A stretch of 64,000 bases of DNA from positions 62,001 to 126,000 of the forward strand of contig JAAYCX010000040.1 in NCBI GenBank assembly GCA_012729555.1, read 5' to 3'. Below the pieces are notes generated by a model. The model made no database searches. It had not been told where the DNA came from and saw nothing but the letters and a program-made list of their open reading frames with translations. A program made the translations under genes and the position numbers. Every line of letters starts with the position of its first letter. The first letter of the stretch is position 1. This stretch comes from Acidobacteriota bacterium (GTDB lineage Bacteria > Acidobacteriota > UBA6911). Shown here in pieces: positions 16,069 through 20,747 of the stretch.

Positions 16069-17424
16069 ATGAAGAAGACTTTTGGTGTATTGCTGCTCTT
16101 TCTTGGCGCGGCCATCTTATCGACCGGAATCAGCGTGGGCCCGTCGCGCGCCGACGACGCCCCCGGGATCACGGTGGCCTACACGAGCAACCTGCTGGGT
16201 TACCTGGAGCCGTGCGGTTGAGTGGAGACGGGCGTACAGCTCGGAGGGCTGTACAAGAAGGCCACCTATCTCAACCAATACCGCAAGGACCACCCCGGAC
16301 TCGTCATCGTGGACTCCGGCGACCTGCTCAACGAGGACGAGGAGCTTCCCGATTCGGTGATCGAGAGCGCGAAACTCAAGGCTGAACTGATCCTGGAGGT
16401 TTACAAGGCCATCGGGATCGACGCCGTCAACGTCGGCGAACTCGACCTGGTCCTGGGACTGGACTACCTCAAGGAGCTGGAAAAGAAGCACTCCTTCCCG
16501 TTCGTTTCGACCAACCTGGTCGACGCCGACGACAAACCGGTCTTCCCGCGGTACGTTCTCAAGCCGGTCAACGGCAAGACCGTGGCCATCCTGGGCCTGT
16601 ACGGGGACACCTCGGAAATGGCGGGCAAGCTCGCCGACATCACGGGAGGCGCTCTCACCGTCCAGGATCCGGTCAAGGCGGCCGAGGCCGTGGTGGCCGA
16701 ACTCGCGGGCAAGGCCGACTACGTGATCGCGATGACGCACCAGATCGCCAACCGCGACTGGGTCATCGCGCGCCGCGTCAAGGGCATCCACCTGGTCGTC
16801 GGCGGCCACGACAGGCAGAAGACGCCCGATCCCCTGGTTGCCGGGGACGCCCTCATCGTCCGGGCGGGGGAGAAGGGACAGTACATGGGAATGCTCGAGG
16901 TCGCCCTGGACGGATCGAGGGAGCCGGCCAATACCCTGGTCCCCTTCGGCGATGAAATCGCCGACGATGCCCGGGTCAAGGAGATGATCGCGGCCTACAA
17001 CGACAAGGTGGCCGACATGTACGGGGGGGACGGGGACCAGCCCGCGGCCGCGGACGTGCCGCTGCGCGTCGAGGCCTGCGCCCCCTGCCACACCAGCCAG
17101 GTGGCGCAGTGGAAGACGACGGATCACGCCAAGGCCTACGCCACCCTGGTCGGCAGGTCCAAGCAGTACGATCCCAAGTGCCTCTCCTGCCACACCGTCC
17201 GCTTCGAGCAGCCGGGCGGCTTCAACATGAAGGAGATGCAGATGGCGCTCGTGAACGTGCAGTGCGAATCGTGCCACGGGGACGCGACCGAGCACCTGGC
17301 CAGCATGAAGCCGATCCCGGTAGCCGACCCGCAGATCGACCTCTGCCTCAAGTGCCACACCGACGACCGTTGTCCGGAATTCGAAGAGGACAAGGAGATC
17401 GTCTTCGACAAGATCAGGCATTAA
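16069..17424 (+). CDS. Putative selenoprotein: exported metallophosphatase-like domain fused to a tetraheme cytochrome c
   Basis: 452 codons from the ATG at 16069 (gaggttag site) with TGA at codon 51, which I read as selenocysteine. Residues 1-28 are a signal peptide (MKKTFGVLLLFLG... ending SRA). The segment SNLLGYLEPCG-U-VETGVQLGGLYKKA has Sec where relatives carry the second Cys of PCGC. Residues 35-310 resemble the UshA/5'-nucleotidase metallophosphatase fold (DSGDLLNEDEE, NVGELDLVLG, MTHQ, VVGGHD), but the N-terminal Asp-x-His pair is absent. Residues about 340-450 form a cytochrome c554-like domain with four CXXCH sites (CAPCH, CLSCH, CESCH, CLKCH). Probably periplasmic. Directly upstream of the MtrAB-like genes. 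The alternative is a plain stop or a sequence error; a GTG restart right after the TGA would lose the signal peptide and has no ribosome site. Confidence 0.8.
16219..16221 (+). other. In-frame TGA, probable selenocysteine codon
   Basis: The codon follows TGC GGT (Cys-Gly) and precedes GTG GAG ACG. One base change from the Cys codons TGC/TGT would give the usual PCGC motif. Both flanks are coding in the same frame and belong to one recognisable protein. Confidence 0.8.
16234..16254 (+). promoter_or_regulatory. Bacterial SECIS-like hairpin downstream of the TGA
   Basis: GUACAGC (16234-16240) pairs perfectly with GCUGUAC (16248-16254). A U-G and a C-G pair can extend the stem, leaving a GGA loop at 16243-16245. 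The loop begins about 20-22 bases after the UGA and starts with G, which fits the spacing and loop rules for bacterial SECIS elements that bind SelB. The hairpin lies in coding sequence, as bacterial SECIS elements do. Confidence 0.7.
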
Positions 17425-17574
17425 GTCCCATCCGCCGGGGGGACGGGCGCCGTCCCCCCGCATCACCCTTCCGCTTCCCTTCCCCACCCGATTCGTGCTA
17501 TAAGAGAACCAACGCTGGTCCAAACCCGTTGGCGAATCCTTTGCCCATTCCCCGTGATGGAGGGATCCCGGCAT

Positions 17575-18543
17575 ATGACCTATCGGTCCTCTCTGGTTGC
17601 CTTTTTTTTCCCGATCCTTCTCCTCCTGTCCCCCCTCTCCGGCCCCTCCGCGGAGGAGGCCGCGGCCTGCCTCGCCTGCCACCAGGAGCAGGCGGGGGTC
17701 CTGGATACCCGGCACGGAACCCCCGGCGATCCCGATTCCCCGGCCGGCAGCGGGCGGGCGTGTTCCGCCTGCCACGGGGAGAATGACGCCCACCCGGACG
17801 ACCCCCGCGGCAACCCGTTCCCCGTACGCTTCACCCGGGGGACCGTCCCCGCGCGGGAGCAGACCGAAGCCTGCATGGAGTGCCACGGGGGAAACCGGCA
17901 TCTCGCCTTCTGGGAATCGGGGCGGCACGCACGCAACGATGTGCGCTGCAACGACTGCCACGCCGTGCATGCGCCGCCCCCTCGCGGATCGGCCGTCGCC
18001 TTCACCAGGCGCGACCCGTCGGCCTCCCCCCTCGTCAACACGGGGCGGGAGCTGGAATACGAAACCTGCATCCGCTGCCACAAGCGGGTGCGCATCGAGA
18101 TCGGGAAGCCCTCCCACCACCCCGTCGTGGAAGGCAAGGTCTCCTGCTCCAGCTGCCACAACCCCCACGGCGCCCAGAGCCCGGGGATGATCCGGCACGA
18201 AACCCTCAACGTGCAGTGCTGGAGCTGTCACGCCGACAAGCGGGGCCCCTTCCTGTTCCAGCACCCGGCGGTCGAGGAGAACTGCCTCTCCTGCCACAGC
18301 CCCCACGGGTCCTCGCACGCGAAACTCCTGAACGAACGGGTCCCCAACCTCTGCCAGGACTGCCACGACTGGTCCCGGCACCCGGGGACCGCCTACAGCG
18401 CCGACCAGGGGTTCGACCGGATCCCCGGGTCTCCGGCCAGGAGCGCGAACACCCGGTTCGTCGCCCGGTCGTGCCTCAACTGCCACAACGCCATCCACGG
18501 GAGCAACGCGCCCGCCACCCGCGGCAAATACCTCACGCGCTAG
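17575..18543 (+). CDS. Decaheme c-type cytochrome, DmsE/MtrA family
   Basis: 322 aa exported cytochrome with ten CXXCH sites in order (CLACH, CSACH, CMECH, CNDCH, CIRCH, CSSCH, CWSCH, CLSCH, CQDCH, CLNCH), the number and length of MtrA/DmsE. In Shewanella such a decaheme sits inside an outer-membrane barrel and carries electrons from periplasm to cell surface. The ATG at 17575 is preferred over one at 17554 because GGAGGG lies at good distance and a signal peptide (SSLVAFFFPILLLLSPLSG) follows. An MtrB-like barrel gene starts 11 bases after its stop, so the two are almost certainly co-translated. No MtrC/OmcA-type surface cytochrome is seen. Confidence 0.93.
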   Translation: MTYRSSLVAFFFPILLLLSPLSGPSAEEAAACLACHQEQAGVLDTRHGTPGDPDSPAGSGRACSACHGENDAHPDDPRGNPFPVRFTRGTVPAREQTEACMECHGGNRHLAFWESGRHARNDVRCNDCHAVHAPPPRGSAVAFTRRDPSASPLVNTGRELEYETCIRCHKRVRIEIGKPSHHPVVEGKVSCSSCHNPHGAQSPGMIRHETLNVQCWSCHADKRGPFLFQHPAVEENCLSCHSPHGSSHAKLLNERVPNLCQDCHDWSRHPGTAYSADQGFDRIPGSPARSANTRFVARSCLNCHNAIHGSNAPATRGKYLTR

Positions 18544-18554
18544 GGGAGCCCGAT

Positions 18555-20747
18555 ATGAAATCCGCCCTCTGTCTCCTGCTCCTTGCCTTCGCGCCGGTCC
18601 CCGGCGCGGCCGCCGACGGGTTCAGCCTTTCCGGGAGCGTCGCCGTCGAAAGAATCGGAGCGGCCGAGGATTCCCGCGACGCGGCCAAACTGGTGGAGTA
18701 CCGCGACCTGTCCGACGGAATCGCCGGGGCTTTCGACCTCGGCGGCCGCGGCGATCGGTTTTATTTCGACGCCTTCGCCGAGAACCTGGGTCGCGACGAC
18801 ATGTTCCTCGACCTGTCGGGGGGAGTCTACGGCCGGATGAAGTTCCGCCTGCGCGCCGACTGGCTGACGCACAACTTCGGCTTCGGGCCCGAAGGGGCGC
18901 GCACCCCTTACGAAAACCCGGGGACCGCCAGGCTGACCCTGTTTTCTACCGCTCCCGCGGAGCTCCTCGATTCGGGCGTGCCCCCCTGGTCCTCCTTCAA
19001 GTTCATGACCGAGCGCCGCAACCTCGAGGGGAGCGTGGAGCTGAACGGCCGCTCCCCATGGTACGTCCTGCTCGGCGGCCGGAATGTGTCCCAGTCGGGC
19101 ATCAACAAGGTGGATGCGGCCGCCCTGGGGACCAGCCCGGGGAACGGGTTCGTCGATCTCCCCTACCCCGTCGACTATTCGACCAGCAGCGGATCGCTGG
19201 AAGCGGGGTACCAGACCCGCAGGGGGCACGTATCGGCGAGCTTTCTGCGGAGCGATTTCGGCAACGACAACATGCTCCTGGATTTCCAGAACCCCTTCTT
19301 CGGTTTCGGCATCGACACCGCGACCTTCGCCCCCGACAACGTCTACAACCGCGTGAGCGCGAGCGGCATGCTGCGCGAACTCCCCTGGAACGCGACGCTC
19401 TCCGGACGCGTCACCTACGACCGGGTCACCGACCGGGTCCCGATGCTGGACGAAGTACTCAACACCTCGGGCTCCCCCGAATACACGGCCACCGCGCCGA
19501 GTTCCGACGCGTTTCGGGGCAAGGTGGAGAATGCGACGGCCCAGGCTTCCTACCGGTTCGCGCCGCTCGGCCGCCTGGATGTCCGCGCCTACTACAACTA
19601 CTACCGGCGCCTGAACGGGTCCACCCACGTCGCATTCCTCGTCCCCCTCGAGACCCGGGGGCTGGTCTGTTCCGAGGAGGGGACGGAGTCCGCCGAAAGC
19701 GTGGCGGTCCATTGCAGCGGGACCCGCTATTCCTACACCAAGCAGAATCCAGGGCTGGAAGCGGAGTACCGCTTCAACCGCGACAACCGGGTCAGCGCCG
19801 GTTTCGACTGGCTGGACACCAACCGCAACCGCTTCGACGCGGAGGAAACCGGAGAAAAGAAACTGTTCGTGCAGTGGTCCAACACCTCCCTCGATTCGGC
19901 TTCGGCGCGGGTCAAATACCAGTACCTGCGCCGGCGTTCGCGCTTCCTCATCGAAAACGCGGGGTTTGACGCCGGCAGCGTCTATTATCTCGAGCGCTTC
20001 AACCGTTCCTTCGATGTCGCCAACCTCGACCAGCACCTCCTCGAGGCCGACGCCGACTGGTCCCCGCTGCCCCTGCTCGATTTCGGGTTCGAGGCCTACT
20101 ACAAGAGAAACGATTACGGGGACCTGGTGCTGGGGCGGCTCGCCGACTCCCGAAGGGAATTTTACGGGAGCATCTCCTACGGAGACCCGGAGAAGTACCG
20201 CCTCACCCTGTTCGGCGACGTGGAGTTCATCCGCTACGACTCCTACCACCGGACCATAAACGCGGGCGCCTGCCCGGCGACATCGCCCGACTGCTTCGAC
20301 CCCCGCGCCGAGCCCACCGCCACCGCCTTCAACTGGAGCGGGCGGCTCAAGGACACAAACTGGGCCGTGGAACTGGCCGCCGATTGGCCCCTCTCCCCCC
20401 GCCTCGCGTTCAAGCTCTCCGCCATCGTCCAGGAAAGCAGCGGCAACGTCGACTTCCAGGCCCAGACGCTCGAGGACGGCACACCGGCCGCGCCGCTCTT
20501 TCCCATCGGCGCCTACGACGACATCAAGCGGCGTTCGATCCATCCGAGGGCGGTCTACGCCTTCGCCCCGGAGGCGGAACTGACGCTCGGGTACGCCTTC
20601 GAAAAATTCGACTACGACGACGCCCAGTTCGACGGCTACAGCTACACCATAGGTTCGGGAACCACGGCCAGTTACCTCTCGGGTATCTACGCCTTCCCCG
20701 GCTACCGGGCGCACGTCGCCTTCGCCACGATGCGCGTGCGCTTCTAA
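18555..20747 (+). CDS. MtrB/PioB family outer-membrane beta-barrel
   Basis: 730 aa with a signal peptide (MKSALCLLLLAFAPVPGAAA). The rest alternates aromatic and polar residues in beta-strand fashion and ends in a C-terminal aromatic (VAFATMRVRF), as outer-membrane barrels do. Segments such as DRFYFDAFAENLGRDD near the N-terminus and repeated YxYxxxxRxxxxxxG patterns fit decaheme-associated outer-membrane proteins. It probably sheathes the decaheme cytochrome encoded just upstream to give a trans-outer-membrane electron conduit. The N-terminal CXXC seen in Shewanella MtrB is absent, which leans toward PioB-like members. The long open frame running into it from upstream is a shadow. Confidence 0.88.
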   Translation: MKSALCLLLLAFAPVPGAAADGFSLSGSVAVERIGAAEDSRDAAKLVEYRDLSDGIAGAFDLGGRGDRFYFDAFAENLGRDDMFLDLSGGVYGRMKFRLRADWLTHNFGFGPEGARTPYENPGTARLTLFSTAPAELLDSGVPPWSSFKFMTERRNLEGSVELNGRSPWYVLLGGRNVSQSGINKVDAAALGTSPGNGFVDLPYPVDYSTSSGSLEAGYQTRRGHVSASFLRSDFGNDNMLLDFQNPFFGFGIDTATFAPDNVYNRVSASGMLRELPWNATLSGRVTYDRVTDRVPMLDEVLNTSGSPEYTATAPSSDAFRGKVENATAQASYRFAPLGRLDVRAYYNYYRRLNGSTHVAFLVPLETRGLVCSEEGTESAESVAVHCSGTRYSYTKQNPGLEAEYRFNRDNRVSAGFDWLDTNRNRFDAEETGEKKLFVQWSNTSLDSASARVKYQYLRRRSRFLIENAGFDAGSVYYLERFNRSFDVANLDQHLLEADADWSPLPLLDFGFEAYYKRNDYGDLVLGRLADSRREFYGSISYGDPEKYRLTLFGDVEFIRYDSYHRTINAGACPATSPDCFDPRAEPTATAFNWSGRLKDTNWAVELAADWPLSPRLAFKLSAIVQESSGNVDFQAQTLEDGTPAAPLFPIGAYDDIKRRSIHPRAVYAFAPEAELTLGYAFEKFDYDDAQFDGYSYTIGSGTTASYLSGIYAFPGYRAHVAFATMRVRF

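Follow-up and report, generated by a model that had tools for sequence, protein, structure and literature searches.

The gene at positions 16069-17424 (forward strand) of the 64,000-nucleotide stretch of acidobacterial DNA analysed here (the window) very probably contains a UGA codon that is recoded as selenocysteine, in a protein of the UshA-like (seleno)protein family NF041198. On readthrough of the internal TGA the gene encodes a single UshA-like tetraheme protein of 451 residues with selenocysteine at residue 51, an assignment based on the reading frame, the NF041198 match and the alignment of homologues. The match to this NCBIfam profile (UshA_like_PCGU, UshA-like (seleno)protein) scores 329.6 bits against a curated cut-off of 275. 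The UshA-like part aligns with positions 23-269 of the profile (length 519) and the tetraheme part with positions 408-517; the UshA-like/tetraheme fusion therefore belongs to a described family. The score, the PCGU motif and the presence of both a UshA-like and a multiheme part all agree with membership. The selenoprotein is thus a genuine and largely ordinary case, with a family and an architecture that are already known. An earlier note on this DNA had stated that no described selenoprotein of this class was known. This statement does not hold, as NF041198 has the same motif and two-domain architecture, and UshA-like CxU selenoproteins had been catalogued by 2008 (PMC2398784) and are also listed in PMC9312934 and PMC13188914.

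The frame contains only one internal TGA (16219-16221, forward strand; codon 51, with the flanking sequence MKKTFGVLLLFLGAAILSTG), which provides the final residue of the PCGU motif (residues 48-51). It is followed by 400 codons and a terminal TAA stop. An AGGAGG-type ribosome site lies upstream of the ATG at 16069, and an in-frame TAG is found immediately 5' of this ATG. The GC3 of the frame is 0.80 upstream of the TGA and 0.90 downstream. Three regions can be distinguished in the product, all encoded on the forward strand. The putative signal peptide (approximately residues 1-29; 16069-16155) is suggested by the sequence and corresponds to a low-confidence stretch of the predicted structure with a helix at residues 8-16. 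A UshA/5'-nucleotidase-like domain that has lost the majority of its metal ligands (16162-16980) was identified from profile matches and the predicted structure, and a tetraheme c554-type domain (17077-17358; Pfam PF13435) carries CxxCH motifs at residues 337, 371, 399 and 426. The signal peptide and the CxxCH motifs point to an exported protein carrying four c-type hemes. The earlier note had placed the TGA inside one coherent protein, with a signal peptide, a start codon and a ribosome-binding site ahead of it and 400 codons of conserved protein downstream. This description is confirmed, as both the frame and the homology continue across the TGA.

The TGA is conserved among homologues. All nine same-genus homologues (57-92% identity) contain exactly one TGA, at the same codon, within a PCGU (or SCGU) motif; a contig scan, which returned one relative, places a 92% identical copy in a named Acidobacteria MAG, a match that assigns the window to Acidobacteriota. 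Among 30 aligned proteins in which the position was read, residue 51 is encoded by TGA in 21 (ten from the window genus and 11 more distant acidobacterial homologues), by TGC or TGT in eight more distant homologues and by neither in one, with 13 further one-TGA matches counted outside the alignment. The TGA thus stands where relatives have a motif Cys, as had been claimed, and the alignment that the earlier note proposed does contain TGA/Cys pairs. Cys49 and residue 51 are conserved at more than 90% in the alignment and the four CxxCH motifs are invariant (30/30 proteins); Gly59-Gly60 and Asp82 are also conserved in the family. In the tree, the window genus forms a well supported, separate clade on a long branch (26-30% identity to the remaining acidobacterial sequences in the sample), the deep branching is weak and the Sec/Cys state requires two to three changes.

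Several homologues depart from the simple Sec or Cys pattern. One (L038), from a genome without selA (G211), has lost both the motif Cys and the Sec and reads EDPGL, and two Cys homologues (L041 and L043) lie within open frames of more than 900 residues. Three genomes (G190, G055 and G176) have a TGA copy together with a stop-free copy, so that Sec and Cys paralogues coexist.

The genome search for sel genes that the earlier note had suggested found selA (564 bits), selB (380 bits) and selD (369 bits), all above cut-off, and a tRNA-Sec (72.4 bits compared with a gathering threshold of 47), which ARAGORN labels tRNA-SeC(tca). The SelD of this genome itself carries an active-site TGA (motif TTAAGU); it is a selenoprotein (L014:1501-2433) with a candidate SECIS hairpin of its own, GGCGCAG-GTG-CTGCGCC. 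Of 47 relatives that have a homologue of the window protein, 44 have selA. The three that do not are a genome of 76% completeness that carries a TGA copy and is the only exception among the TGA-bearing genomes tested, and two genomes with copies free of in-frame stops. The presence of selA is a poor separator of Sec and Cys genomes, as most genomes with either form have it.

A candidate SECIS hairpin with a 9 bp stem and a GGA loop lies downstream of the TGA at 16234-16254 (forward strand), with the sequence GTACAGCTC-GGA-GGGCTGTAC. It has a folding energy of -13 kcal/mol (z-score of -2.6; two of 200 shuffled sequences were equally good). The published bacterial SECIS model has a loop of 3-9 nt, a G in the first two loop positions, a spacing of 16-37 nt and an MFE of -7.5 or lower (PMC13188914), and the three-nucleotide GGA loop, which begins 21 nt after the TGA, and the folding energy of the present hairpin lie within all four limits. 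No match was found in the window with Rfam at the gathering threshold, and the SECIS assignment is therefore based on folding and comparison.

The loop is found at the same register in all ten window-genus sequences. The 11 distant Sec homologues have a hairpin with a GGC, GGA or GTC loop at 28 nt, over different codons, and the eight Cys homologues have no hairpin of this form at either register. Every pair of a 7 bp stem forms in each of the 21 Sec sequences. In the combined alignment, 100% of the 133 cells pair, whereas shuffled sequences reach 87% and sliding the alignment leaves no more than 53%; these counts are biased towards structure, as the alignment joins the two registers and was built on the hairpin itself. 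Within the distant Sec group, one stem pair varies among G-C, C-G and G-U through synonymous changes at third codon positions. This compensatory pair is independent of the hairpin-anchored alignment and is thus unaffected by its bias. Two registers with compensatory synonymous changes provide a clean natural case in which the SECIS has moved within a single gene family.

Taken together, the sel genes, the conserved TGA, the Sec/Cys pairs and the candidate SECIS agree, and local recoding to selenocysteine, as originally proposed, is strongly supported by this comparative evidence. SelB and tRNA-Sec would read UGA codon 51 as selenocysteine, aided by the hairpin directly downstream. It is very improbable that the TGA is a genuine stop that leaves a pseudogene or a 50-residue product, with the downstream part restarted at GTG 16222. 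A GTG does follow the TGA immediately, and the ORF listing gives a 400-residue frame from it, but nine other genomes of the genus preserve both the frame and the protein, each with this one TGA, and a restarted product would be without the signal peptide required for c-type heme attachment; moreover, both the hairpin and the Sec machinery exist. The chance that the TGA is a sequencing or assembly error for TGC or TGT is negligible: although the source assembly consists of 98 contigs, nine further genomes of the genus and members of several other families in the phylum carry the identical TGA, and this conservation refutes an error. An alternative genetic code was rejected because TGA is a normal stop for other genes of the window, of which the plsX-like gene and the DEAD-box helicase gene terminate with TGA, in line with the earlier observation.

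Sequence and predicted structure both assign a 5'-nucleotidase fold to the N-terminal domain (model pLDDT of 79; the heme domain is modelled at approximately 70). The canonical di-metal ligand positions of UshA and CD73 are the DxH, GD and GNH motifs and two further His sites. The DxH and GNH motifs are absent throughout the family as sampled in the 30-protein alignment. The residues of this protein that still align with metal ligands are D85 (the GD Asp), H224 and H247, which may allow some metal binding. They are not kept across the family; both His residues are unconserved outside the genus and H247 is missing in some genus members. The description of the protein as a metallophosphatase-tetraheme cytochrome stands with respect to the UshA/5'-nucleotidase fold and the four CxxCH motifs, but metallophosphatase function is doubtful because most of the canonical metal ligands are missing. 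On the same evidence, a true phosphoesterase or nucleotidase, with Sec as a metal ligand and the hemes serving regulation or anchoring, is unlikely: the match of fold and sequence to 5'-nucleotidases and the three aligned residues would favour such an enzyme, but the family-wide loss of DxH and GNH and the poor conservation of the two His residues argue against it.

The Cys-Gly-Sec sequence sits in the loop directly after the former DxH metal-binding motif. The loss of the metal ligands, together with the conservation of Cys49, Sec/Cys51, Gly59-Gly60, Asp82 and the heme sites, suggests a redox protein. From the motif and the fusion, we consider the chances about even that it is a periplasmic protein in which Cys49/Sec51 exchanges electrons with the hemes. 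In the pocket of the former active site, Cys49/Sec51 could react with a substrate or bind a metal or sulfur species, and the Cys-Gly-Sec centre would pass electrons to or from the fused hemes. More tentatively, the family may represent an uncharacterised kind of heme-coupled selenoenzyme in which a dead phosphoesterase pocket has been refitted with a Cys-Gly-Sec centre wired to four hemes. The family is catalogued and no biochemical study was found in the literature searched; the lost metal site next to a conserved Cys-Gly-Sec suggests a redox function that is testable.

The next gene downstream (17554-18543, forward strand) encodes a decaheme DmsE-family cytochrome (TIGR03508) and is followed by a gene for an MtrB/PioB-type outer-membrane barrel (porin; 18537-20747, forward strand). 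This pair is likely to form an outer-membrane electron conduit, and its position directly downstream could indicate that the selenoprotein is part of it. We regard this as improbable, as only the nearest relative, whose protein is 92% identical, retains these neighbours; in G006 (88%) a DEAD-box gene comes directly next, and the other genus members have no conduit genes nearby. Functional coupling to the decaheme and porin genes was rejected because the adjacency is not conserved, and the neighbourhood therefore indicates no partner. Outside the genus, clustering of the neighbours gave no informative recurrent genes.

The N-terminal domain shares its fold with 5'-nucleotidase/UshA/CD73 and SoxB, but the DxH and GNH motifs are lost and a tetraheme tail replaces the usual C-terminal domain of these proteins. 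The tail matches cytochrome c554 (PF13435), although here it is fused to a UshA-like domain; a stand-alone tetraheme protein akin to the tail (L002:995-1366, a 157-residue open frame) is also encoded in the same genome. UshA-like (seleno)protein family 2 (NF049981) is likewise a selenoprotein family with a related N-terminal part, but it is matched at only 28.8 bits (cut-off of 140) and has a CxxU motif, whereas the motif here is CxU. NF041198 shares the PCGU/C motif, the UshA-like domain and the C-terminal tetraheme domain. The window genus differs from the remainder of that family: it forms a divergent clade, two additional residues follow the motif and the SECIS lies at a different register. 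It is this divergent acidobacterial clade and its clear register shift that are new here.
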